Source: Bordetella sp. LUAb4 | Lineage (GTDB): Bacteria; Pseudomonadota; Gammaproteobacteria; Burkholderiales; Burkholderiaceae_B | DNA: 64,000 bases | Reading direction: 5' to 3' | Assembly: GCF_021325795.1 (NCBI RefSeq) | Contig: NZ_JAHPZX010000006.1 | Location: 124,001 to 188,000 of the forward strand | Part shown: positions 47,660 to 62,249 of the stretch, piece by piece | Position numbering within the stretch: position 1 is the first letter of the stretch | How the letters are laid out: each line of letters opens with the position of its first letter | Program-made: the position numbers and the translations under genes | The notes under the pieces: model-generated | Database searches by the model: none | What the model was told of the DNA's origin: nothing | Seen by the model: only the letters and a program-made list of their open reading frames with translations

Positions 47660-48562
47660 TTATTTCTCCTTGCCGAACAGGCCGGCTGGACGCACCAGCA
47701 ACACCACGGCCATGACCACGAACACCACCACCGTGGATGCTTCCGGATAGAACACCTTGGTCAGCCCTTCCAGCAGCCCCAGTGCAAGGCCGGTGACGAT
47801 AGCGCCCATGATGGACCCCAGGCCGCCGATCACCACCACCGCGAACACGATGTTCAACAGGTTCGATCCCATCAATGGATTGATCTGCATGACCGGCGCT
47901 GCCAACACCCCGGCCACACCCGCCAGCGCCACACCGAAACCGTAAGTCAGCGTGATCATTACCGGTACGTTCACGCCGAAGGCCTGTAGCAGGCGCGGAT
48001 TCTCCGTGCCGGCGCGCAGCATCGCACCCAGGCGCGTCCTTTCGAACAGATACCAGGTAAGCAGGCAGATCGACAGGGACGCCACCACCACGAAGGCGCG
48101 ATAGCCCGGCAGATACATGAAGTCCAGATCGAAACCGCCCTGCAGCAGCTCTGGCGGTTCATAGCCCACGCCGGAAATCCCAAAGAAATAGCGAAAGCCC
48201 CCTTCCATCATCAAGGCGATGCCGAACGTCAGCAGCAAGCCATATAGGTGGTCGAGGTGATACAGCCGCTTGAGCAGGGTACGTTCGATGACGATGCCCA
48301 CGCCACCGACGATGAGCGGCGCCAGCAACAGGGCAACCCAGAAATCGATCTGCACGCTTTCACCCAGCCATTGCGGCAGCTGGGTGAAACCGATCCACGC
48401 CAGGAAGGCCGCCATCATGAACTGCGCGCCGTGGGTGAAATTAACGATGTTCAGCAGACCGAAGATGATTGCCAGCCCCATGCTGAGGATGGCGTAGAAG
48501 CAGCCGTTGATCAGCCCCACCAGGAGCTGGGCCAGAAGAGACTGGTAGGAGATATCGAACAT
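47660..48562 (-). CDS. livH: Branched-chain amino acid-type ABC permease
   Basis: A 300-residue HAAT permease with about eight helices: LLVGLINGCFYAILSMGLAI (14-33), IFGLLNIVNFTHGAQFM and ENPRLLQAFGVNV EAA loop, ending in VVLLVRPAGLFGKEK, the LivH tail. ATG at 48560-48562 fits the family; an ATG at 48604 would add a 14-residue leader. Second partner of the permease pair. Confidence 0.92.
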   Translation of the reverse strand: MFDISYQSLLAQLLVGLINGCFYAILSMGLAIIFGLLNIVNFTHGAQFMMAAFLAWIGFTQLPQWLGESVQIDFWVALLLAPLIVGGVGIVIERTLLKRLYHLDHLYGLLLTFGIALMMEGGFRYFFGISGVGYEPPELLQGGFDLDFMYLPGYRAFVVVASLSICLLTWYLFERTRLGAMLRAGTENPRLLQAFGVNVPVMITLTYGFGVALAGVAGVLAAPVMQINPLMGSNLLNIVFAVVVIGGLGSIMGAIVTGLALGLLEGLTKVFYPEASTVVVFVVMAVVLLVRPAGLFGKEK

Positions 48563-48714
48563 ATAGGGCACCGGGGCTGGCGCCGTCGACGACGGCACGG
48601 GCATATCAGGCGTGGCTTGCCGAGTGATGCATGGGGAGTGGGGCACGGAGCGTGAAGCGCGGGGCGGCTCATCCCACCCTGCGCCGCCCGCCCCGCGCGG
48701 CACGGGTCAATGCA

Positions 48715-49917
48715 TCACGACTTGACCAGCGGGCAGGCAGCCTGCGGCTTGGGGAACACGTCCTCGCCCTTCAGTACGGCCTTGACGTTGTAGTAGTCCC
48801 AAGGTGCCTTGGACTGCGCCGGCGTCTTGACCTGCAGCAGCAGCATGTCATGCACCAGGGCGCCGTCGGCGCGCAGCTTGCCATTGCGGATCACCGCATC
48901 GTTGATGGTCATCTCGCGCAGCTTGGCCATGACGGCGGGTGCGTCGTCGGTACCGGCCGCTTCGATGGCCTTCAGATAGTTCAACGTGGCGGAATACACG
49001 CCGGCCTGCGATGCGGTAGGCATCTTCTTGGTCTTGTCGAAGAACTTGCGAGCCCAGGCGCGCGACGCGTCGTCGTAGTCCCAATAGAAAGCTTCCGTCA
49101 GGTACATGCCCTGCGCTTTCTGCAGGCCCATGCTGTGCACGTCCGAGATATAGGTCAACAACGGCGCGACGGTCTGCTTCTTGGAAATACCGAATTCGGC
49201 CGCCTGCTTCACCGCGTTGACCGTATCGTTGCCGGCGTTGGCCAGCGCGATCACATCGGCCTTGGAGGCCTGGGCCTTGAGCAGGAAGGACGAAAAGTCA
49301 TTGCCCGGGAAAGGATGGCGCGACACGCCCACCACTTCACCGCCGTTCTCCTTGATCACTTCCGTGGCGTCTTTTTCCAGCGAGTGGCCGAAGGTGTAGT
49401 CCGCGGTGATGAAGTACCAGGTCTTCTTGCCTTCCTTGACCAGCGCACGCGCGGTGCCGGCCGCCAAGGCATAGGTGTTGGTGGTCCATTGCGCGTTCAG
49501 GGGCGAGCACTTTTCGCCCAGGATGGCGGTGGACAGACCAGCCGACGGCATGGTGACGCGGTTCTTTTGCTTGGCGATTTCCATCACCGCCAGCGCCGTG
49601 GAGGCGGTGGGAAAGTCGGTGATCATGTCGACCTTGCCCTGGTCGAACCATTCGCGCGCCAGGTTGGCGGCGACGTCCGGCTTGTTCTGGTGATCGGCGG
49701 CCACGACTTCGACGGGCTTGCCCAGCACCTTGTTGCCCATTTCCTCGGCGGCCAGGCGGGCCGCCACGACCGAACCATTGCCGGCGAGGTCGGAATAGAC
49801 ACCGGACAAGTCGGTCAAGACCCCTATCTTGACCACATCATCGCTGATACCGGCCGCCTGGGACGCGCCGGCGTAGCCCAGGAAACACAGCGCTGCCGCG
49901 ATTTTCTTGATTTTCAT
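48715..49917 (-). CDS. livK: ABC transporter substrate-binding protein (HAAT family)
   Basis: A 400-residue periplasmic binding protein with signal peptide 1-21 (cleavage after SQA), then IGVLTDLSGVYSDLAGNGSV, VDMITDFPTASTALAV and the WYFITADYTFGHSLEKD block typical of Peripla_BP_6 proteins for amides or aromatic acids. Start at 49915-49917 is set by the signal peptide. Lies between livF and livH. Because the operon begins with a DHDPS-family lyase, the ligand may be a keto-sugar acid or amide rather than leucine. Confidence 0.92.
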   Translation of the reverse strand: MKIKKIAAALCFLGYAGASQAAGISDDVVKIGVLTDLSGVYSDLAGNGSVVAARLAAEEMGNKVLGKPVEVVAADHQNKPDVAANLAREWFDQGKVDMITDFPTASTALAVMEIAKQKNRVTMPSAGLSTAILGEKCSPLNAQWTTNTYALAAGTARALVKEGKKTWYFITADYTFGHSLEKDATEVIKENGGEVVGVSRHPFPGNDFSSFLLKAQASKADVIALANAGNDTVNAVKQAAEFGISKKQTVAPLLTYISDVHSMGLQKAQGMYLTEAFYWDYDDASRAWARKFFDKTKKMPTASQAGVYSATLNYLKAIEAAGTDDAPAVMAKLREMTINDAVIRNGKLRADGALVHDMLLLQVKTPAQSKAPWDYYNVKAVLKGEDVFPKPQAACPLVKS

Positions 49918-50009
49918 TCGAAACGCTCCATGGATGGATATGAGGTCTGGAAGACAACGTTTGGGAAGAAGATGGTGATGCGTGTTGCTTACTGCGGATG
50001 CCCAACAAT

Positions 50010-50706
<697 letters not shown>

Positions 50707-50714
<8 letters not shown>

Positions 50715-51462
50715 CTTCCGCTCCCATATACGCTTCCCGCACGGCCGGGTCGATCGACACTTCGGCATACGGCCCTTCGGCCAGGATTTCGCCACGCTGC
50801 AGCACGGTGATGGTGTCCGAAATATCGGCCACGACCTTCATATTGTGTTCGACCATAAGAATGGTGCGGCCCGCCGACACGGCCTTGATCAGGTGTTTGA
50901 TGCGGTCGACGTCTTCATGCCCCATGCCCTGCGTCGGCTCGTCCAGAAGCAGAAGTTCCGGTTCAAGCGCCAGGGTCGTGGCGATCTCCAGCGTGCGTTT
51001 GCGACCATATGGCAGGTCGCCGGCGGCAGTGTGCAGATGCGTGCGCAGGCCGACCTGATCCAGCAGTTCCTCGACGCGGTGGTGCAACTTTTCCAGCGTG
51101 CGCTCCGCGCGCCAGAAGCAATAATCCACGCCCAGGCGCCGCTGTAGCGCCACGCGCACGTTTTCCAGCACGGACAGCTGACCGAACACCGCGGAGATCT
51201 GGAAAGACCGCACGATGCCGCGCCGCGCTGTCTGCGCCGGCTTTTCCTGCGTGATGTCGATGCCATCGAACAGGATGGCACCGCGCGTGGGCGCATGGAA
51301 CTTGGTCAACAGATTGAAGAACGTGGTCTTGCCCGCACCGTTCGGTCCGATCAGGGCGTGGATGGCGCCCCGCCGCACCGCCAGGTCGACGTTGTTCACC
51401 GCCACGAAGCCGCGGAACTCCTTGGTAAGCCCTCGCGTCTGCAGAATGATGTCGCTTTGCAT
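50707..51462 (-). CDS. livG: HAAT-family ABC ATPase LivG
   Basis: A 251-residue ATPase with canonical Walker A GPNGAGKTT (about 39-47), LivG-specific RRGIVRSFQ Q-loop, LPYGRKRTLEIATTL in place of a strict LSGGQ signature, Walker B LLLLDEPTQGM and switch VEHNM. Together with LivF, LivH, LivM and LivK it makes a complete HAAT importer. It lies 176 bp after the DHDPS-family gene. Confidence 0.93.
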
Positions 51463-51638
51463 GTCAGAGTCAGGACGAACGCATCCCGCGCGGCGGCCTT
51501 GCGGCCGCCGCCGGATGACTTTGCGGGAAAGGACGCGGAAGGCGTCTTGAAGAACGGGCCGGGCCAGATCCTTGCAACCCTTGCAGCAGGCTCAGGCCGC
51601 TTTCGGCTTGCGGCTAAGGCGGATCTGGCGCGGCAGGC

Positions 51639-52550
51639 TTAGCGCGACTGGTACTCGGCCGGACGCTTTTCCAGCGCGGCGCGGATGATGCGTTCGACGC
51701 GCTCGCGTTCGGCACCCACCAGCGGCAGACGCGGACGGCGTACGTTTTCGTTGCCCACGCCGGCCAGGGTCTCGGCCAGCTTGATGTTCTGCACCAGCTT
51801 GGTCGACACGTCCAGGTGCAGCAAGGGCGTGAACCATTGGTACAGGGCCAGCGCCTCGGCCCACTTGCCGGCCTTCATCAGGTCGTACAGGGCGACGGTT
51901 TCGCGCGGGAATGCGGTCACCAGGCCGGCCAGCAGGCCATCGGCGCCCAGGGCCAGGGCTTCGAACGACAGGTCGTCCACACCGATGAACAGCTGATAGC
52001 GCTGGCCCAGCGTGTTGCGCAGGTCCGTGATGCGGCGGATGTCGTCGCAGCTTTCCTTGATCGCCACCAGCCATTCGCAATCCGCCAGCTCGGCCATGTG
52101 CTCGGGCTTCAGGTCGACGCGGTAGGCCACCGGGTTGTTGTAGATCATGCAAGGCTTCTTGGCGGCCTCGGCAATGGTGCGTACGCTGAGCATCGCTTCG
52201 CGCGAATCGGCGACATAGATCAGCGAGGGCATGATCATGAAGCCGTCGACGCCGGCGTCGACGGCAGCCTTGACGTAGCGCAGCGCCTCGCGGGTGCTGG
52301 TTTCGGAAACGTTGGCCAGGATGGGGACACGTCCCTCGCTGACTTCGACGGCCGTCTTGGCCACCGCCACCTTCTCTTCCAGCGACAGCGTGCTGGCTTC
52401 GCCCAGCGAGCCGCCGGTCACCAGGCCATGCACTCCGTTGTTGATGAGAAAGCTGAAATGCTTGCGCATTTCCTCATGGTCCAGCGTCTCATCGGCGTTG
52501 AATTTGGACGTAACGGCGGGGAAGACCCCTTGCCAGCGCGCGTTGCTCAC
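51639..52550 (-). CDS. Dihydrodipicolinate synthase-family lyase/aldolase
   Basis: A 303-residue class I aldolase-fold protein. Schiff-base K165 (VAIKES) and Y137 (MIYNNP) are present, with TGGSLGEAS (45-53) at the position of the DapA GTTGE motif, so it is a paralogue rather than housekeeping DapA; 2-keto-3-deoxy sugar acid dehydratase or 4-hydroxy-2-oxoglutarate aldolase-type activity is likely. The start is GTG at 52548-52550, chosen because AGGAG lies 7 bases upstream; a longer frame from a GTG at 52586 has no such site. First gene of the liv operon. Confidence 0.87.
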   Translation of the reverse strand: MSNARWQGVFPAVTSKFNADETLDHEEMRKHFSFLINNGVHGLVTGGSLGEASTLSLEEKVAVAKTAVEVSEGRVPILANVSETSTREALRYVKAAVDAGVDGFMIMPSLIYVADSREAMLSVRTIAEAAKKPCMIYNNPVAYRVDLKPEHMAELADCEWLVAIKESCDDIRRITDLRNTLGQRYQLFIGVDDLSFEALALGADGLLAGLVTAFPRETVALYDLMKAGKWAEALALYQWFTPLLHLDVSTKLVQNIKLAETLAGVGNENVRRPRLPLVGAERERVERIIRAALEKRPAEYQSR

Positions 52551-52879
52551 CTGCTTCTCCTGGATAGGGCGGCGGGTATCCGCCACATGGATTCCGATGT
52601 CGAATCCGATGGGAGGCAGATTAATATCGAGTAAATATATTTACAAGATATTCGAATTAAGGGCTTTCCCGGGCGGGGTTTTCCCGGACTGACATTCGAA
52701 CGCGCTGCCGCCGGCCGCAGCGCCATTTCTATTGTTCACAGCTTATTACGGTCGCTGAACGGCACCCATGCCGCTTCGTCTGCGAGACTGTTTTCGGAAC
52801 ATTTTGTCTCATCGCACAACACTCAGCGCGTAGGGGGCCAAGCGCCGACCTGCCGCTTCACTCCACTTTGGATGCTGAT
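52551..52879. promoter_or_regulatory. Divergent spacer with palindrome GTAAATATATTTAC
   Basis: No gene is supported in these 329 bp. An AT-rich block at 52620-52660 includes the perfect 14-bp palindrome GTAAATATATTTAC (52631-52644), about 80 bp upstream of the DHDPS-family start on the minus strand. TTGTAA on the minus strand overlaps it and may be a -35. The plus-strand half toward the Ig-like genes shows no clear promoter. Confidence 0.5.
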
Positions 52880-55210
52880 ATGAACGACAGTCGCTCCCCT
52901 GCTCCCGCAAAAGTTTCACTACCCGGCGCCAGCGGAAACGCCGCGCAAGCCAGCGTTGCGGCAGCAACGCCGATCTATATCGCGGTCGACACCGACAAGA
53001 ACCAATCGCTGATTCGGACTCAGTCGAACGAAGCCCTGCCCACGCTGTATGTGAAGGCTTTCTACGATCAAGCGCATACGCAGCCCGTGGCATCGGCCAA
53101 TATCGTTTTCTCATTTTGTCCGGCCTTTTATGGCGATCCCCGGCGAGGGGGGGCGTCCACGGCCGGCGTCTGGCCCTTGTCGCAGACGGTATCAGTCGTC
53201 AATGGCGAGGGAAGTTGCTCCGGGTTCACCACTGGGGTATGCACCGGCGATATCTATCGCCAGGAAAGCGACCGCGACCAGTTTGGCACCGCGTATATCT
53301 ATGCGCATTCCACGGATATTTCCGGCGCCCCCTTCACCGATGACGACAAGCCACGTATGGCTGTCTTCACGGTAAAGGTCGCAGTAAAGCCGGTGGCGGC
53401 GGGCGACAAATGTCGATTGATCATCGCCGGCGGAGACAATCAGTTTCTCCCCTTAGGTAACAAGCTTCCCCTGTCCAGCCCATTGCTCGCTGTATTGATC
53501 AATGACGACGACTCCACCATCGTAACGGGCGTTCCCATTGCCTATAACGGCTTTTACGGCAACAAGAACACGGAGTTTCCGAACCTTAGCCAAGACCAAG
53601 TGCAGACTGATATGGAATGGTCGGTAGCGGCGACGACCCGCAACGGCTTTCCGTCATCATCCCGTCCATACACTACCTCTGCCAACCAGGGCACGGCCAA
53701 GGCATCCGTACCAAGCATGCCAAAAGTCGACACGCTTACGTTCGTTGCGCGCACCGCGTCTTCCCCTCCCGCCAATGCGACGGCGCTGTTTCCAAGTTCA
53801 GGAAACATGCAGAGTACGCAGCCAAACACGCAATTTCCGCACAACCTGACAACGGCGACACTCAACGACAGCGTATCGCCGGCGACACCGCTGCTCGGCA
53901 TCGTTGTCACGTACGAAATAACGTCCGGAAATGCCGTTTTCGATTACACAAGAACGGTGGCCGGCGGAGAAATCACACAGATTTCCACGACGAAGGCACA
54001 GAGTTTCTCCGGCTCTTCCTATCTCGTACCGTCTCCCTACGTCTCGCCGACAAGCGACAACGGCGTTGTCTCAATCACGGCGAGCACCGATGATGCAGTG
54101 CATTTCGCCACGTTCATACTGCGGATCAGCGCTTCCGCCCCTATCCCCAATTCGCCATCGTCGTCGTCCGATACCTATTACGTCGATGTCGACAAGGGCA
54201 ACCTTCAAGATCAGCTCCTTCGTACGCCTTATGAGGTCGCCCTGACCGCATCGGCCTGGACCAAGGACAGACAGCCAGTCAGCGGCGGCTCCATCACGTT
54301 CGACGTGCAACCGGATACGGCCATCGGTGCATTCAACAACACTGCCCCCAGCCCTATCGTCAACGGCATCGCCACGGCGTCCAGTCTTTTGCCCTTCTCG
54401 ATCTTCAGTTCGAGTTCAACGTCAGACTACGGGACGTTCACCGTCCGCGCTTATCCCACGGGTGTAGACCCGGCCACGGCTGCTCCAGGCCAGGTGGCGA
54501 TCTATACGGAACGCACCTGGCGCGGGCCCTCCGCCAAGATCTTCTTGATCAACGACGGACAGACCACATCGCCGGGACTAGCATTCCACACGCGCTTGCA
54601 GGCGAAGGTGCAGGACTCCTTCAACGCGCCGGTGGAAAGTGTGCTGCTTACCTTCACCATCACCAGCGGCGCTACCTTCGATATCAACGACAAGCCGGAC
54701 CTGCTGGTGGACGTTTCACCTTCCACCGCGCGCGTTCGCACCAACGCCAGCGGCATTGCCACGGCACCCAACATCATTGCCGGCAACACCACCGGTGATG
54801 TCAAAGTCCAGGTCAGCACGCCCGTCGCCGCAACGCAGACATACACCCTGCATGTCCAGTCCGGGACCATCAATCCCGGCGATGGAGATGCCTATCGCAT
54901 CGATGTCCTGACGGGTTCCCGTCTTTCCATGTCCAAACACGGCCAGGCCTCGCCACAGTTCGCCCTTACGGACACCACCTCCGGCAGGCGCATGCCCAAC
55001 ACACCCATGCAGATGGACGTAGGCAACACCGGCGGCGCCTCGGTCAGTTTCTCGCTCACGGACCCAACCATGCAAAGCACAACCGTCACGACCAATGACG
55101 AGGGCATTGCCTTGGTCACCGTGTACTCCGCCGATGCAACCGGCTCGGCGACCCTGTTGGCGTCCTACCCCGGTGCAGACTCCAAGACCGTCATTATCTC
55201 GGTCAGTTGA
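52880..55210 (+). CDS. Tandem Ig-like-module protein 1
   Basis: A 776-residue protein with no signal peptide or membrane segment that I can see. Modules: N-terminal unit with four cysteines (about 30-180; C80, C113, C121, C178; DPRRGGAST and DRDQFGTAYIYAH), a variable stretch (180-300), beta-rich Ig-like unit 1 (302-420, VTYEITSGNAVFDY), unit 2 (432-547, SITFDV), unit 3 (552-662, LTFTITSGATFDI, the Big-1-like pattern TNASGIAT) and a terminal unit 4 (671-776). Start is ATG 52880 without a strong ribosome-binding site. First of four paralogues. Function unknown; invasin-like adhesive repeats are the nearest analogy. Confidence 0.85.
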   Translation: MNDSRSPAPAKVSLPGASGNAAQASVAAATPIYIAVDTDKNQSLIRTQSNEALPTLYVKAFYDQAHTQPVASANIVFSFCPAFYGDPRRGGASTAGVWPLSQTVSVVNGEGSCSGFTTGVCTGDIYRQESDRDQFGTAYIYAHSTDISGAPFTDDDKPRMAVFTVKVAVKPVAAGDKCRLIIAGGDNQFLPLGNKLPLSSPLLAVLINDDDSTIVTGVPIAYNGFYGNKNTEFPNLSQDQVQTDMEWSVAATTRNGFPSSSRPYTTSANQGTAKASVPSMPKVDTLTFVARTASSPPANATALFPSSGNMQSTQPNTQFPHNLTTATLNDSVSPATPLLGIVVTYEITSGNAVFDYTRTVAGGEITQISTTKAQSFSGSSYLVPSPYVSPTSDNGVVSITASTDDAVHFATFILRISASAPIPNSPSSSSDTYYVDVDKGNLQDQLLRTPYEVALTASAWTKDRQPVSGGSITFDVQPDTAIGAFNNTAPSPIVNGIATASSLLPFSIFSSSSTSDYGTFTVRAYPTGVDPATAAPGQVAIYTERTWRGPSAKIFLINDGQTTSPGLAFHTRLQAKVQDSFNAPVESVLLTFTITSGATFDINDKPDLLVDVSPSTARVRTNASGIATAPNIIAGNTTGDVKVQVSTPVAATQTYTLHVQSGTINPGDGDAYRIDVLTGSRLSMSKHGQASPQFALTDTTSGRRMPNTPMQMDVGNTGGASVSFSLTDPTMQSTTVTTNDEGIALVTVYSADATGSATLLASYPGADSKTVIISVS

Positions 55211-55244
55211 TTCCTTCCTATTTAAAAACGAATTGGAAAACGAT
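54845..55244 (+). repeat. Near-identical block, copy in paralogue 1
   Basis: The last about 365 bp of paralogue 1 plus the 34-bp spacer recur with only scattered mismatches 2014 bp downstream (56859-57258). Coding and spacer DNA are equally conserved, indicating recent duplication or gene conversion. Confidence 0.85.
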
Positions 55245-57224
55245 ATGACCAAGAACCGCTCCACCACCACCTCGAATCCGTCGAAAACCGGCATGGCAGC
55301 AGAAAGCGCAACCGTGTCCAATGCAGCAGGCACGCCCATCTATATCTCGGTCGACACCGACAAGAACCAATCGCTGATCCATGCCGTACCGAACAGCAAT
55401 ATTCCCACGCTGTATGTGAACGCTTCTTACGATAAGGCCGGCACGCAGCCCGTCCCATCGGCCGAGATCGTCTTCTCGTTTTGTCCCGCCTATTACGGCG
55501 ACCCCCGACGCGGCGGGGCATCGACTGCGAGTGTGTGGCCCTTGTCGCAAAGAGTGTCCATCGTCAACGGCAAGGGTAGCTGCTCGGGGTTCGCCGCCGG
55601 TGTCTGCACAGGCGACATATGGCGCCAGGAAAGCGACCGTGACATGTTCGGTACCGCATACATCTATGCACATGGCACGGACATTTCAGGCCTTCCTTTC
55701 ACCGATGCGGACAAGCCCTACATGGCGGCCTTCACCGTAAAGGTAGCTGTCATGCCAGTGGCGGCAAGCAGCAAATGCCGATTGGTCATGGCAGCGGGGA
55801 ATAACCAGTTCATGTTCGAGCCGCCGGGCTATTCACGTCCTGGCCCCATGTCCAGTCCACTTCTCGGCATGTTGGTCAATGAGGACGACTCCACGATAGT
55901 GACAGGGGTGCCAATCGAGTACAGCGGCAGGATTAACCTTTATTTCCAGGACCTCGTAAAAGATCAGCCGAATCCTCACAATAGTGTGTATGTGATCGTC
56001 GCAGAGACCCGCAACGGATTTCCGTCATCCACCACTCCTTACTGCGCGGAGAGCCAAGAACCAACCCCGCAACCTGTCTCTGTGTCGGTCCCAAGCATGA
56101 GCGACGTAGCACCACTTACATTCGAATGGCACACCTCGGCCGTCTCTCCAGCGAATGCAACCGCACTGTTTCCCAGCATGGGAAACATGCAGAGCACGCG
56201 TCCAAACACGCTATTTCCCCACAACCTGACGACGGCCGTATTCAACGATAGCGTGAACCCCGCGACGCCGTTGATCGGCGCCATCATCACGTACGAGATA
56301 ACGTCGGGCAACGCCGTATTCGATTACACCGAGACGGTAGTCGATGGCCAATTCACACCGGTGTCCCCGACCAAGGCGAACTGCTACTGCTTTTCCTCTT
56401 ATCTCGTCCCGTCTCCATACGTCAAGCCAACGAGCGATAACGGTGTGGTCACCATCACGGCGACCTGCGCCGACGCCTTGCAAACCGCCACTTTCACACT
56501 GCTGATCAGCGCTTCAGCCCCTATCCCCAGTACGCCTTCCTCTACGTCCAAGATCACACTGATCAACGACGGCCAGACCACCTCGCCGGGACTGGCGTTC
56601 GGCAATCGCCTGCAGGCAAAGGTGCAGGACTCCTTCGGCGCGCCGGTGGAGAACGTGCTGCTCACCTTCACCATCACCAGCGACGCCACCTTCGATATCA
56701 ACGACAAGCCGGATCTGCTCGAAGACGCCACGCCATCCACCGCGCGCGCTCGCACCAACGCCAGCGGCGTGGCCACGGCGCCAAAGATCATTGCCGGCAA
56801 CGCCACCGGTGACGTCAAGGTCCAGGTCGCCACACCGATCGCCGCCCCGCAGACGTACACCCTGCATGTCCAGTCCGGGACCATCAATCCCGGCGATGGA
56901 GATGCCTATCGCATCGATGTCCTGACCGGCTCCCGTCTTTCCATGTCCAGAGATGGCCAGGCCTCGCCACAGTTCGCCCTTACGGACACCACCTCCGGCA
57001 GGCGCATGCCCAACACACCCATGCAGATGGACGTAGGCAACACCGGCGGCGCCTCAGTCAGTTTCTCGCTCACGGACCCAACCATGCAAAGCACAACCGT
57101 CACAACCAATGACGAGGGCATTGCCTTGGTCACCGTGTACTCCGCCGATGCGGCCGGCTCGGCGACCCTGTTGGCGTCCTACCCCGGTGCAGACTCCAAG
57201 ACCGTCATTATCTCGGTCAGTTGA
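55245..57224 (+). CDS. Tandem Ig-like-module protein 2, lacks one module
   Basis: A 659-residue paralogue of the preceding gene, beginning MTKNRSTTTSN with GGAAAACG before the ATG. It keeps the four-cysteine N-terminal unit, the variable region and Ig-like unit 1, then jumps from ISASAPIPSTPSSTS straight to KITLINDGQTTS, so the roughly 120-residue unit 2 seen in paralogues 1 and 3 is missing while the frame is kept. Units 3 and 4 follow and are nearly identical at DNA level to those of paralogue 1. An extra CYC motif occurs in unit 1. No signal peptide. Confidence 0.85.
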   Translation: MTKNRSTTTSNPSKTGMAAESATVSNAAGTPIYISVDTDKNQSLIHAVPNSNIPTLYVNASYDKAGTQPVPSAEIVFSFCPAYYGDPRRGGASTASVWPLSQRVSIVNGKGSCSGFAAGVCTGDIWRQESDRDMFGTAYIYAHGTDISGLPFTDADKPYMAAFTVKVAVMPVAASSKCRLVMAAGNNQFMFEPPGYSRPGPMSSPLLGMLVNEDDSTIVTGVPIEYSGRINLYFQDLVKDQPNPHNSVYVIVAETRNGFPSSTTPYCAESQEPTPQPVSVSVPSMSDVAPLTFEWHTSAVSPANATALFPSMGNMQSTRPNTLFPHNLTTAVFNDSVNPATPLIGAIITYEITSGNAVFDYTETVVDGQFTPVSPTKANCYCFSSYLVPSPYVKPTSDNGVVTITATCADALQTATFTLLISASAPIPSTPSSTSKITLINDGQTTSPGLAFGNRLQAKVQDSFGAPVENVLLTFTITSDATFDINDKPDLLEDATPSTARARTNASGVATAPKIIAGNATGDVKVQVATPIAAPQTYTLHVQSGTINPGDGDAYRIDVLTGSRLSMSRDGQASPQFALTDTTSGRRMPNTPMQMDVGNTGGASVSFSLTDPTMQSTTVTTNDEGIALVTVYSADAAGSATLLASYPGADSKTVIISVS

Positions 57225-57258
57225 TTCCTTCCTATTTAAAAACGAATTGGAAAACGAA
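56859..57258 (+). repeat. Near-identical block, copy in paralogue 2
   Basis: Matches 54845-55244, including the spacer TTCCTTCCTATTTAAAAACG and the ribosome-binding site of the next gene. Confidence 0.85.
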
Positions 57259-59580
57259 ATGACCAACAAACGCCCCGCCACTACCGCCCCCTCGTCGAAA
57301 GCCAGTGTGACAACAGCGAACGCTGCAGTGTCCAATGCCGCCGGAACCCCCATCTGGATCACGGTCGACACCGAGAAGAGTCCGTCGTTGATCCGGCTCT
57401 TGCCGAACCAAGCCCTGCCTACGCTTTATGTGAAGGCCTTCTACGATCAGGCGAATACGCAGCCCGTGGCGTCGGCCAACATCGTTTTCTCATTTTGCCC
57501 GGCGTTTTATGGGGATCCCCGGCGAGGTGGAGCGTCCACGGCCAGCGTCTGGCCCTTGTCGCAGACGGTGTCGATCGTCAATGGCCAGGGAAGCTGCTCG
57601 GGGTTCACGGCCGGCGTCTGCACGAGCGATATCTATCGCCAGGAGAGCGACCGCGACCAATTTGGCACGGCATACATCTATGCGCATTCCGCGGACATTT
57701 CCGGCACGCCTTTCACCGACGCCGATAAGCCACGCATGGCTCTCTTCACGGTAAAGATCGCCGTGAAGCCGGTGGCCTTGAGCAACAGATGCCGACTGGT
57801 CATGGGCGCGGGTGATAAGCAATTCATTTTCAAGCCGGAACAGGGCCTGAGGTCCAGCCCGTTACTGGCCATCGCGGTGAATGAAGGCGACTCCACGATC
57901 GTGACAGGGCCGTCCGCGACGTATAACGGCCAGCAGATCGTGATGTTCCAGAGTCTGCTCGGAGATCTGCCCCAGGAGGAAGGTGCCTACACCATCAAGG
58001 CAACGACCCAAAACGGCTTTCCATCGTCAACCATTCCTTTCCGGCCGGACACGATCGTCGAAACGGGAATAGTAACGGTCGCGGTACCTGGCGCCGGGGC
58101 ACTTACGTTCAACTGGCACGGCACGGATACCGTTCCCGCGAATGCGACGGCGCTGTTTCCAAGCACCGGAAACATACAGAGCACGCTGCCAAATACGCCA
58201 TTTCCCCACAACCTGGTGACAGCGACATTCAACGACAGCGTGACGCCGGCGACGCCACGGCTCGGCGTCACTGTCACGTATGAGATCACGACCGGAAACG
58301 CGGTATTCGATTACACGAGAACCGTGTCCGGCGGACAGGTCACACGGATTTCCGACACGAAGGCGCAGAGTGTTTCGTCCTCATCCTATCTCGCGCCATC
58401 TCCCTACCTGTCGCCGACGACCGCAAACGGGGTTGTATCGGTCACGGCAAGCACCGATGCGGCAACGCAACTCGCCACGTTCATACTGCTGATCAGCACA
58501 TCTACCTCTACCCCCGTTACGCCTCCATCGACCTCGAGCGGCTATTACGTAGAGGTCGACAAGGGCGACTTGCAGGATCAAATACTGCGTACCCCTTATC
58601 CCATCACACTGACCGCGTCGGTCTTGGACAAGAACAGACTGCCAGCCGGCACCGGTTCCATCACCTTCGACGTGCCGGGGGGGGACACCGCCGCTGGTTC
58701 GTTCGCCAGCTCCGCTCCCAGCCCTGTCGTCAACGGCATCGCCACCGCTTCCAGCCTTACCCCATTCACGATCTTCAGTTCGAGCGCAACTTCGGACTAC
58801 GGCACATTCAAGGTCCGCGCCTACCCCACAGGTGTCAACCCGGCCACCGCGGCGCCTGGCCAGGTGGCCATCTATACGGAACGTACCTGGCGCGGCGCCA
58901 CCGCGAAGATCACCCTGCTGCACGACGGACAGACCACGTCAACGGGACAGGCCTTCGGTACCCGTTTGCAGGCCAGCGTACAGGACTCCTTCGCCAAGCC
59001 CGTGGAGAATCTGCTGCTCACCTTCACCATTCCCAGTGGCGCCACCTTCGATATCAGCGACAAACCGGACCTGCTGGTGGATGTCACCGCGTCGACCGCG
59101 CGCGTTCTCACCAATGCCAGCGGCGTGGCGACGGCTCCCAACATCATTGCCGGCAACGCTACCGGTGATGTCAAGGTCCAGGTCACTACGCCCGTCGCCG
59201 CAACGCAGACATACACCCTGCATGTCCAGTCCGGGACCATCAATCCCGGCGGCGGAGGGACCTATCGCATCGATGTCCTGACCGGCTCCCGTCTTTCCAT
59301 GTCCAGAAACGGCCAGGCCTCTCCACAGTTCAAACTCACGAACACCATGACCGGAAGGATCGTGCCCAATCAACCCATGCAGATGGACATCGGCAACACC
59401 GGCGGCGCCTCGGTCAGTTTTTCGCGCACGGACCCGACCATGCAAAGCACCACCGTCACGACCAATGACGACGGCATTGCCCTGGTCACCGTGTACGCCG
59501 CCGATGCGGCCGGATCAGCGACCCTGTTGGCGTCCTACCCTGGCGCCGACTCCAAGACGGTCATTATCTCGGTCAGTTGA
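57259..59580 (+). CDS. Tandem Ig-like-module protein 3
   Basis: A 773-residue paralogue with the full set: four-cysteine N-terminal unit, variable region, Ig-like unit 1, unit 2 (KGDLQDQILRTPYPITLTASV, SITFDVPGGDTAAGSF), unit 3 and terminal unit 4 ending in SYPGADSKTVIISVS. It starts MTNKRPATT, 34 bp after paralogue 2, and the 34-bp spacer is the same (one mismatch) as that between paralogues 1 and 2. Its units 2-4 match paralogue 4 better than 1 or 2. No signal peptide. Confidence 0.85.
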   Translation: MTNKRPATTAPSSKASVTTANAAVSNAAGTPIWITVDTEKSPSLIRLLPNQALPTLYVKAFYDQANTQPVASANIVFSFCPAFYGDPRRGGASTASVWPLSQTVSIVNGQGSCSGFTAGVCTSDIYRQESDRDQFGTAYIYAHSADISGTPFTDADKPRMALFTVKIAVKPVALSNRCRLVMGAGDKQFIFKPEQGLRSSPLLAIAVNEGDSTIVTGPSATYNGQQIVMFQSLLGDLPQEEGAYTIKATTQNGFPSSTIPFRPDTIVETGIVTVAVPGAGALTFNWHGTDTVPANATALFPSTGNIQSTLPNTPFPHNLVTATFNDSVTPATPRLGVTVTYEITTGNAVFDYTRTVSGGQVTRISDTKAQSVSSSSYLAPSPYLSPTTANGVVSVTASTDAATQLATFILLISTSTSTPVTPPSTSSGYYVEVDKGDLQDQILRTPYPITLTASVLDKNRLPAGTGSITFDVPGGDTAAGSFASSAPSPVVNGIATASSLTPFTIFSSSATSDYGTFKVRAYPTGVNPATAAPGQVAIYTERTWRGATAKITLLHDGQTTSTGQAFGTRLQASVQDSFAKPVENLLLTFTIPSGATFDISDKPDLLVDVTASTARVLTNASGVATAPNIIAGNATGDVKVQVTTPVAATQTYTLHVQSGTINPGGGGTYRIDVLTGSRLSMSRNGQASPQFKLTNTMTGRIVPNQPMQMDIGNTGGASVSFSRTDPTMQSTTVTTNDDGIALVTVYAADAAGSATLLASYPGADSKTVIISVS
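58550..59580 (+). repeat. Long near-identical block, copy in paralogue 3
   Basis: About 1 kb covering units 2-4 of paralogue 3 recurs at an offset of 2350 bp in paralogue 4 (60900-61930), ending at the same stop position. Similarity stops after the stop codons. Confidence 0.85.
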
Positions 59581-59632
59581 GTGAATCCGCCAAACGCCAT
59601 TCGAACCGCACAGCGAAACCTGGAAGAGTCAC

Positions 59633-61930
59633 ATGAACAAGAAAAGCGCGCCCGATAGCATTACCCCGCAAGCCCCCCCAGCCAATCAGGAAGGCGAGTC
59701 ACGTCCTGGATCGATCGCCCCGCCATCGAATGCAGACTCGTGGCCCCGCCTGACCTTCGTCGGAGGCAACAACCAAACAACCGCAACGGGGACCGCCTTC
59801 GCGTACCCAGTTAGCGCGTGCGTGAAGATCGACGGGGGGAATCCCGTACCAGGGTATACGCTTTACTACAACATCTGGAGTGGGATGGCCACGTTCAACT
59901 ACGACCACCCCAGCACCGATAACATGGCAGTGTGGACGAACCGGACATCTAACTCATGCAATGTCTCGAACAGGTACCCAAACCAAGGGATATGTGAATC
60001 TCCCCAGATCATCGCTGGACCAAACGCGGGTCAGGTGATCATTGCCGTAGGCGCCCCTACTGGCGTCCTTGATGCGCCCCAATACTTTACGCTCACGATC
60101 ACCGACGGAACCAAGCCCCCGCCCTCGCCCCCGGGCGGGAAAACTACGCCTGCGTTGTTTGTCTGGAGCGGCCAACCGCAAGCGACGAATATCAATACGG
60201 ATTTTTCCAAGCCGCTCATCACCGCGGTCGTCGATCAGGCTACCGGCGGCGCGCTACCCGGCGTTCCGGTCACATATACGATCAGGTCTGGGAATGCCAC
60301 CTTTGACTACAGCCGGCCGTTAGATTCCTCATATGCCACGACCGTGCGCCAAATCAGCCCCACGGTCGCCGTTTGCACGAGCAAGTCTTCCCATCTGGCT
60401 GCATCCCCCTACATATTGGCGGGTCCCAACGCGGGGAAAGTCACGGTGAGGGCAACCGCGGACAATGCCGTGAATTATCTGGACTTCACGGATCTGACCA
60501 TAACTGCCCCCGCCCCGCCCAAGGATACCCCTGTCCTGAGCGCATATGACGGCGACAAGCAAAGTGCGCCCGCGAACACGGACTTTACTTCCGCGGTCGT
60601 GGCCAAAATGGCGGGCAGCCCGTCGGGAAGTGCCATGCCGAATGTGACGGTGACGTTCACCATCACCAGCAACAACGCCACCTTCGACTACAACGCGACA
60701 ACCACCACGGTCACCGAGATCTCTTCCACTTCGGCAAGCAGTGTGACCAACGGCTCAGGCCTGGCCACCTCGCCGAAGATCCTGGCAGGCAGCGCCGCCG
60801 GCACCGTCACGATCACCGCCAGCGCGTCCAACGCCACCCAAAAACCCAACTTCAACCTGACCATCACGGCGGCTGCACCCGGGGCCGATATCTTTTACGT
60901 GGAGGTCGACAAGGGCGACTTGCAGGACCAGATACTGCGTACGCCTTATCCGATCACACTGACCGCGTCGGTCTTGGACAAGAACAGGCAGCCTGTCACC
61001 ACAGGCTCCATCACCTTCGACGTGCCGGGCGGGGACACCGCCGCTGGTTCATTCGCCAGCTCTGCTCCCTGCCCTGTCGTCAACGGCATCGCCACCGCGT
61101 CCAGCCTCACGCCCTTCTCGATCTTCAGTTCGAGCGCGACATCGGACTACGGCACGTTCAGGGTCCGTGCCTATCCCACAGGGGTCGATCCCACCAATGC
61201 GCCGCCCAGTCAAGTGGCCATCTACACCGAGCGTACCTGGCTCGGGGCCACCGCGAAGATCACGCTGCTGCACGACGGACAGACCACGTCAACAGGACAG
61301 GCCTTCGGCACCCGTTTGCAGGCCAGCGTACAGGATTCCTTCGCCAAGCCCGTGGAGAATCTGCTGCTCACCTTCACCATTCCCAGTGGCGCCACCTTCG
61401 ATATCAACGACAAGCCGGACCTGCTGGTGGATGTCACCGCGTCGACCGCGCGCGTTCTCACCAATGCCAGCGGCGTGGCCACGGCGCCCAACATCATTGC
61501 CGGCAGCGCTACCGGTGATGTCAAGGTCCAGGTCAGTACGCCCGTCGCCGCAACGCAGACATACACCCTGCATGTCCAGTCCGGGACCCTCAATCCCGGC
61601 GATGGGGACACCTATCGCATCGATGTCCTGACGGGTTCCCGTCTTTCCATGTCCAAACACGGCCAGGCCTCGCCACAGTTCAAACTCACGAACACCGTGA
61701 CCGGAAGGATCGTCCCCAATCAACCCATGCAGATGGACATCGGCAACACCGGCGGCGCCTCGGTCAGTTTTTCGCGCACGGATCCGACCATGCAAAGCAC
61801 AACCGCCACGACCAATGACAGCGGCATTGCCTTGGTCACCGTGTACTCCGCCGATGCGGCCGGCTCGGCGACCCTGTTGGCGTCCTACCCTGGCGCAGAC
61901 TCCAAGACGGTCATTATCTCGGTCAGCTGA
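59633..61930 (+). CDS. Tandem Ig-like-module protein 4, different N terminus
   Basis: A 765-residue protein joining a new N-terminal half to the shared C-terminal half. Residues 40-412 are three successive beta-rich repeats of about 120 residues (each with a pattern like TYTIRSGNATFDY and a later ASPYILAGPNAGKVTV), replacing the cysteine-containing unit and variable region. From about 420 it carries units 2, 3 and 4, nearly identical to paralogue 3. GGAAGAG precedes the ATG. Followed by a strong terminator, so it closes the array. No signal peptide is visible. Confidence 0.85.
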   Translation: MNKKSAPDSITPQAPPANQEGESRPGSIAPPSNADSWPRLTFVGGNNQTTATGTAFAYPVSACVKIDGGNPVPGYTLYYNIWSGMATFNYDHPSTDNMAVWTNRTSNSCNVSNRYPNQGICESPQIIAGPNAGQVIIAVGAPTGVLDAPQYFTLTITDGTKPPPSPPGGKTTPALFVWSGQPQATNINTDFSKPLITAVVDQATGGALPGVPVTYTIRSGNATFDYSRPLDSSYATTVRQISPTVAVCTSKSSHLAASPYILAGPNAGKVTVRATADNAVNYLDFTDLTITAPAPPKDTPVLSAYDGDKQSAPANTDFTSAVVAKMAGSPSGSAMPNVTVTFTITSNNATFDYNATTTTVTEISSTSASSVTNGSGLATSPKILAGSAAGTVTITASASNATQKPNFNLTITAAAPGADIFYVEVDKGDLQDQILRTPYPITLTASVLDKNRQPVTTGSITFDVPGGDTAAGSFASSAPCPVVNGIATASSLTPFSIFSSSATSDYGTFRVRAYPTGVDPTNAPPSQVAIYTERTWLGATAKITLLHDGQTTSTGQAFGTRLQASVQDSFAKPVENLLLTFTIPSGATFDINDKPDLLVDVTASTARVLTNASGVATAPNIIAGSATGDVKVQVSTPVAATQTYTLHVQSGTLNPGDGDTYRIDVLTGSRLSMSKHGQASPQFKLTNTVTGRIVPNQPMQMDIGNTGGASVSFSRTDPTMQSTTATTNDSGIALVTVYSADAAGSATLLASYPGADSKTVIISVS
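60900..61930 (+). repeat. Long near-identical block, copy in paralogue 4
   Basis: Matches 58550-59580. Upstream of it the two genes share no obvious similarity, marking a recombination or module-swap boundary near residue 420 of paralogue 4. Confidence 0.85.
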
Positions 61931-61975: not shown

Positions 61976-62061
61976 AAAAGCCCCACGCTCCTGGATTGCC
62001 CCCCAAAAGTCGGATCTACATCCAACTCTTGGGGTGTAGTTCATCCTCGCGTGGGGCTTTT
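61976..62061 (+). terminator. Terminator closing the Ig-like gene array
   Basis: AAAAGCCCCACGC (61976-61988) pairs perfectly over 13 bp with GCGTGGGGCTTTT (62049-62061), ending in a T run. The 60-base loop contains a second inverted repeat (61997-62043). Confidence 0.8.
61997..62043. mobile_element. Possible 47-bp IS3-type end-to-end remnant
   Basis: On the minus strand the segment reads TGAACTACACCCCAAGAGTT ... ACTTTTGGGGGGCA, i.e. two inward-facing imperfect inverted repeats with TG...CA tips resembling IS3-family ends, with no transposase between them. It sits inside the loop of the terminator. Could equally be a chance nested stem. Confidence 0.4.
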
Positions 62062-62150: not shown

Positions 62151-62249
62151 CAGTCCATTAACGATCAACCATCAACAACCTTGGAGAGACCTGTCCGGGC
62201 ACAGGGCAAGCCAACGGCTTGGCCTTCACCACGGCCTGCTCCCCTCTGT

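Follow-up and report, generated by a model that had tools for sequence, protein, structure and literature searches.

The window analysed here, a stretch of 64,000 nucleotides from Bordetella sp. LUAb4 (NCBI RefSeq assembly GCF_021325795.1, contig NZ_JAHPZX010000006.1, positions 124,001 to 188,000 of the forward strand), carries an array of four genes for modular, immunoglobulin (Ig)-like proteins in which no secretion signal is evident. An earlier note, made from the sequence alone, had described four same-strand genes of 659–776 codons, and both coordinates and lengths could be confirmed (Table 1). The proteins (P0001 to P0004, encoded by genes 1 to 4) are built from two alternating modules, A of about 120 residues and B of about 110 residues, which together form an A-B unit of about 235 residues. 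That beta-rich modules are common to all four, as the note had claimed, is borne out by a B-module model built without sequences from the window, which recognises the B modules of genes 1–3 with E-values of 6e-10 to 9e-9 and those of gene 4 with 8e-24 to 4e-14, and by a family of 300-nt repeats with four copies in the window, the others being 82–84% identical to the reference copy. The repeats in the window are beyond chance. All four proteins share a C-terminal cap that terminates in SKTVIISVS, again as described earlier, and the four-cysteine N-terminal unit reported for three of the genes was recovered as a head unit, with Cys 80, 113, 121 and 178 the same in genes 1–3. Gene 2 contains four additional cysteines, and gene 4, without a head unit, has five in different positions.

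Table 1. Positions of the array genes, their modules and the surrounding features in the window
Feature	Position	Strand	Description
Gene 1 (P0001)	52880..55210	+	776 aa; head unit, variable insert, B, A-B unit, C-terminal cap
Gene 2 (P0002)	55245..57224	+	659 aa; head unit and variable insert, followed by two B modules and the cap; lacks the internal A module
Gene 3 (P0003)	57259..59580	+	773 aa; module order as in gene 1
Gene 4 (P0004)	59633..61930	+	765 aa; three B modules, then A-B unit and cap; head unit lacking
Head unit, gene 1	52967..53395	+	aa 30-172; four cysteines; E 5e-8 against heads of other array proteins
Head unit, gene 2	55332..55760	+	aa 30-172; E 7.9e-9 against other heads
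Head unit, gene 3	57346..57774	+	aa 30-172; E 2e-10 against other heads; AlphaFold confidence mixed
Insert, gene 1	53402..53764	+	aa 175-295; most divergent part of genes 1-3; gap in eight aligned relatives
Insert, gene 2	55767..56129	+	counterpart of gene 1 insert (alignment, divergence)
Insert, gene 3	57781..58143	+	counterpart of gene 1 insert; pLDDT <40
A-B unit, gene 1	54179..54856	+	two Ig-like modules
A-B unit, gene 3	58546..59226	+	module profiles, AlphaFold
A-B unit, gene 4	60896..61576	+	
C-terminal cap, gene 1	54878..55207	+	weak Invasin_D3/Big_1 matches; terminal SKTVIISVS
C-terminal cap, gene 2	56892..57221	+	near-identical to gene 1 cap
C-terminal cap, gene 3	59248..59577	+	
C-terminal cap, gene 4	61598..61927	+	
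Array-carrying segment	52687..62313	.	not present in HZ34 between the corresponding flanks; match to the flanks ends at 52686, resumes at 62245 or 62314
Inverted repeat	61976..62061	.	12 bp, AAAAGCCCCACG/CGTGGGGCTTTT, long loop, 3' of gene 4; by eye; absent from terminator-scan list

Head unit, fold and family assignment

An assignment of the N-terminal unit to a known non-Ig family would have contradicted the earlier note. The unit was found to match heads of its own family instead: the units of genes 1, 2 and 3 recognise heads from a second array in the same genome and from two relatives with E-values of 5e-8, 8e-9 and 2e-10 (model of 14 rows; best of 300 shuffles E 0.37), and no Pfam model matched the four-cysteine unit up to E 1. 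An assignment of the head as a diverged internal A module was rejected, as it came from an iterated search that had absorbed head sequences; with a model built without window rows, the match is not significant, P0001 giving E 0.06 (best of 200 shuffles 0.17) and genes 2 and 3 not being listed. The internal A modules score E 0.013–0.085 with the head model (best of 300 shuffles 0.37), and a descent of the head from an A module is possible.

Between the head and the following B module, genes 1–3 encode the insert of about 120 residues. The head and insert of P0003 are poorly modelled by AlphaFold (predicted local distance difference test score, pLDDT, 54.5), and the first 28 residues of this protein are probably disordered, because they are modelled with very low confidence. 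Residues 425–773 of P0003 are predicted to form beta-sandwiches (pLDDT 90), with fold matches to many Ig-like proteins, intimin, InvE and FdeC among them, in a search that covered the families in the VIA list. Of the Ig-like, Big-1-type modules proposed earlier, the fold thus stands as predicted for this part of P0003, but the cut-off of the Pfam Big_1 family (PF02369; 34.9 bits) is passed only by P0004 (44.8 bits), P0001 and P0002 remaining below it (15.5 and 22.4 bits) and P0003 being unlisted at E 1.

Invasin-type Ig-like rods are normally exported by a built-in route. The array proteins resemble the inverse autotransporters of the intimin/invasin type (intimin, InvE) in their tandem Ig-like modules, with fold matches of 17–21% identity, but differ from them in having no evident signal peptide or beta-barrel, in being encoded by tandem genes, and in their distinct head unit. 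Likewise, FdeC of E. coli has a comparable row of Ig-like domains (E 5.8e-11), but is an exported adhesin, whereas the array proteins have no evident leader.

Searches with NCBIfam and PHROGs gave nothing usable for the four proteins (one NCBIfam row, E 0.17), none of the four matched PADLOC-DB at E 0.01, and the Pfam, NCBIfam, PADLOC and PHROGs scans revealed no toxin or immunity domain in them. The PDB sequence search returned no match for P0003 and, for the A-B profile, a single row at chance level (E 0.9). No matches were obtained in plasmids and phages by tblastn, nor in viral contigs.

Export signals and composition

No lipobox, RTX, LPXTG or Tat motifs were found in the four proteins, and no membrane helix (maximum Kyte-Doolittle hydrophobicity over 19 residues 1.35–1.55). 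Judged by hydrophobicity, a crude test used without a dedicated signal-peptide predictor, none has an evident N-terminal Sec signal peptide, with a narrow margin for gene 1: among the 12-mers that begin within the first 30 residues, the hydrophobicity peaks at 1.68, 0.65, 0.89 and -0.42 for genes 1–4, compared to 1.88–2.58 for the leaders of five exported proteins of the same genome. Gene 1 was called leaderless because its peak (SVAAATPIYIAV, beginning at residue 25) lies below these controls, and also because a basic start is missing. The in-frame stretches upstream of the starts comprise 73, 74, 74 and 16 codons for genes 1–4; a Sec or Tat leader from a different true start, a possibility raised in the earlier note, was not found in these frames, and the one short hydrophobic stretch upstream of gene 1 (FVCETVFGTFCLIA) is not preceded by ATG, GTG or TTG, other start codons not being excluded. 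No Pfam barrel family matched at E 1, the modules fill the chains except for the insert, and GGxGxD nonapeptide repeats (RTX, type 1 secretion) occur in none of 11 scanned proteins. The lack of an evident signal peptide, membrane helix, barrel and LPXTG-like anchor was upheld by hydrophobicity, motif scans and Pfam, as was the absence of an adjacent secretion-system gene by inspection of the open reading frames of the window.

Array frames are leaderless elsewhere too. In all 27 frames scanned from the arrays of four genomes (G000, the genome of the window, and G001, G003 and G004), the N-terminus read from the first ATG peaks at 1.43 or less; values of up to 1.81 are reached from a few ATGs further downstream. 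With their invasin-type modules and no evident export signal, the proteins could be taken for degenerate adhesins that have lost their leader and are now functionless, but the four frames are intact, every one of the 27 scanned frames is leaderless, and selection on the array genes is purifying on average, with ratios of nonsynonymous to synonymous substitution rates (dN/dS) of 0.28–0.52 for six gene pairs (Nei-Gojobori on whole chains, the gene 4 pairs including stretches that are not truly alignable). We consider such decay very improbable.

The amino acid composition leans towards an extracytoplasmic destination. Eleven family proteins have serine plus threonine fractions (S+T) of 0.164–0.242 and glutamate fractions of 0.009–0.036, compared with 0.086–0.121 and 0.049–0.086 in seven cytoplasmic controls, and they fall near two porins, with periplasmic binding proteins and an OmpA-like protein in between. 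These values, low in glutamate and high in S+T, are unlike those of the cytoplasmic controls and argue against an intracellular role, either as a cytoplasmic Ig-rod scaffold or as a defence sensor or decoy, possibly anti-phage and diverging because phages do. Such a role would agree with the lack of an evident leader and with the divergence and the presence or absence at variable sites described below, which resemble defence loci, and distant relatives in a genome of another genus (G800) lie near genes for a CI-like repressor and a spanin. With no PADLOC match in the four proteins and no effector domain found with Pfam, we regard it as unlikely.

Related arrays, divergence and the site of the window array

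A second, larger array could be identified in the same genome (6.66 Mb, 20 contigs), with ten leaderless frames on the minus strand (G000:C14:451747-475658). It encodes three single A-B proteins, four frames of 1060–1201 residues and one of up to 1799 residues, together with a conserved partner of 366 residues and an RCC1-type propeller above the Pfam cut-offs. The long frame measures 1765 residues from its first start, and its N-terminal part is probably not translated. The partner ends in an RCC1-like GWGSTDSGVLG, its last residues resembling a single RCC1 blade motif. The site of this array is also occupied in Achromobacter aloeverae AVA-1 (G001) and Achromobacter sp. HZ34 (G004), and a smaller array is present in G003 (G003:C1:4437496-4451359). 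RCC1-type propellers above the cut-offs (PF00415, PF25390) are encoded in the arrays of all four genomes, whereas none was found in the four-gene array of the window.

The G003 array lies directly downstream of a LodA_C gene and a flavoprotein gene, which we take to be LodB-like, as in a LodA/LodB quinoprotein oxidase. LodA was rejected as a general partner, since LodA_C (PF18417) is found in only one of the six genomes of the genus. The LodA_C gene of G003 seems to be duplicated in part, and its array includes two RCC1-type proteins above a Pfam cut-off as well as a protein with a possibly lectin-like N-terminus (by eye).

A-B units were detected in four of the six genus genomes, the own genome included. 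In the family they occur in five of 268 genomes at 1e-8, the fifth being the weaker match of G800; in the class sample one of 369 genomes has them at 1e-12 and one of 369 has the partner protein, in both cases the own genome. Among 399 genomes of the order, five gave matches at 1e-8; four of these five belong to other genera (5e-9 to 8e-13), and of the frames read there in short loci, two (L033 and L036) end in a hydrophobic stretch and resemble ordinary exported Big_1 proteins. With P0003 as query, three of 61 genomes were matched, all of the genus and including the own. As the genomes were sampled evenly from larger groups, rarer carriers may have been missed, and related leaderless arrays in genera beyond the sampled genomes are possible. 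Many Ig-like annotations without a signal exist in other Proteobacteria.

Arrays and their surroundings differ strongly in conservation. Seven genes flanking the second array (by eye encoding ProB, a prenyl synthase-like protein, two porins, two LysR-type regulators and an aminotransferase) are 87.7–99.0% identical to HZ34, whereas the best HZ34 matches of all ten array proteins have 33.1–40.7% identity (propeller 40.7%, one A-B protein 36.8%). Three flank frames (56.8–81.7%) and one antisense array frame (30.7%), which look antisense or unclear, were left out of the seven-gene range, and as best matches were used, paralogues may stand in for orthologues. Compared with G001, the propeller of the second array is 47.8% identical and eight others 28–40%, and between G004 and G001 three of the seven listed array proteins are 53–60% and four 34–41% identical. 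Within the window, residues 201–300 are the most divergent among genes 1–3 (dN 0.44–0.58, ratio 0.33–0.57). The C-terminal ends are homogenised, dS between genes 1 and 2 being 0.053 at residues 701–776 versus 1.76 at 101–200. The divergence of the arrays may stem from fast change or from replacement by acquired arrays.

At the site of the window array, the left flank (48000-52686) is 91% and the right flank (from 62245) 84% identical to HZ34, where the two are separated by only 154 bp in one search or 220 bp in another. The segment of 52.7–62.3 kb has therefore either been acquired in this genome or been lost from others. Inspection of the segment by eye revealed no integrase or transposase, and the GC content is 57–63% in the array and 60–66% in the surroundings. 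In G001 the same site holds three other genes (ApbA-, RpiR- and EamA-like by eye; G001:C13:100957-103683). The interval between the dapA-like and aquaporin genes is thus a variable spot, with the array, three other genes or 154–220 bp depending on the species. The inverted repeat downstream of gene 4 is a possible end of the transcription unit.

Proposed role and release of the array proteins

We propose, with a probability of about 0.42, that the array encodes recognition proteins that act outside the cytoplasm and are exported or released without Sec or Tat. This is thought most likely because of the composition, the invasin-type rods, the variable head and the strong divergence. On this reading the proteins are rod-like chains in which Ig-like modules of the Big_1 type, known from intimin and invasin, follow one another, with a variable N-terminal head in genes 1–3 and a homogenised cap in all four. 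They form part of a family of leaderless arrays in an Achromobacter-type genus, whose further members are proteins with one A-B unit, longer proteins with repeated A-B units, an RCC1-type propeller and the conserved partner. Neighbours, host surfaces or phages might be recognised, and a dedicated system or controlled lysis might provide the exit; the extracellular site, the binding function, the arms-race pressure and the export route are what we infer from these features.

Several observations weigh against this proposal. The lists of fold matches are headed by complement, macroglobulin, GH2 and ciliary proteins, with tied or better scores. Cysteine counts of 2–8 give no clear sign of disulphides. 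Two periplasmic binding proteins have S+T values of only 0.116 and 0.127, near the cytoplasmic range, and the 12 proteins used as composition controls were chosen by hand and identified by eye. The divergence could reflect replacement by acquired arrays. Finally, neither an export gene nor an export signal could be found next to the array of the window, and markers of type VI (T6SS; TssC) and type III (T3SS; hrcV) secretion systems are present in all six genus genomes, including two without A-B units, and therefore do not track the array.

The presence of both systems in the genome would also allow the Ig-like proteins to be delivered as T3SS or T6SS cargo, for which the probable disorder at the start of P0003 and the N-termini of all four, in which S, T, A, P and N are abundant by eye, could be suitable. 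Given the same systems in genomes without A-B units, the failure to recognise chaperone or delivery genes by eye in the neighbourhood of the arrays, and the unusual cargo that long rows of stable Ig folds would form, this is improbable.

A lineage with many invasin-type Ig rods that lack an evident leader and diverge strongly at a conserved site points to an export or release route so far unconnected with this fold, or to intracellular use. Ig-like repeat proteins are of a known kind; on arrays of such proteins that are leaderless, have diverged strongly and include propeller partners, no literature was found among listed open-licence PubMed Central papers. Because the array is cleanly present or absent at one site and contrasts with its flanks, the question can be tested within one genus. 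An extension of the proposal, which we hold to be unlikely, is a polymorphic recognition system of cytoplasm-folded proteins (Ig rods, single A-B proteins, RCC1 propellers and possibly, by eye, lectin-headed proteins in G003 and G800). Occupying fixed positions in the chromosome, its arrays would diversify as genes are duplicated in tandem and their ends homogenised, and the proteins would be released without Sec or Tat, perhaps via domesticated phage lysis genes.

Controlled lysis by a holin/endolysin/spanin cassette resembling a type 10 secretion system (T10SS) could free leaderless folded proteins. According to PMC10847048, the T10SS is a release route for such proteins, and it would account for their release here. 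In G800 (C12:65143-67561; L071 5144-7562), genes for a CI-like repressor and an Rz-like spanin and two phage-family genes without known function lie 2–5 kb from distant array relatives, and inspection of 44–65 kb by eye revealed neither capsid nor integrase genes. With the published route and these genes, controlled lysis is a lead from one genome, and its overall probability is low: all that points to it is a spanin gene and phage-family genes close to a single distant relative, in a stretch read to 88 kb with a transposase-like frame at 54158. These genes may be prophage remains, the holin and endolysin roles being putative, and no lysis cassette was recognised in the stretches read around both arrays of the own genome. 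A PDB sequence search with a G800 N-terminus gave three rows, the best with E 0.56. Further on in G800, an autotransporter-like gene (by eye) and an Imm11 immunity gene (86856-87524) are present.
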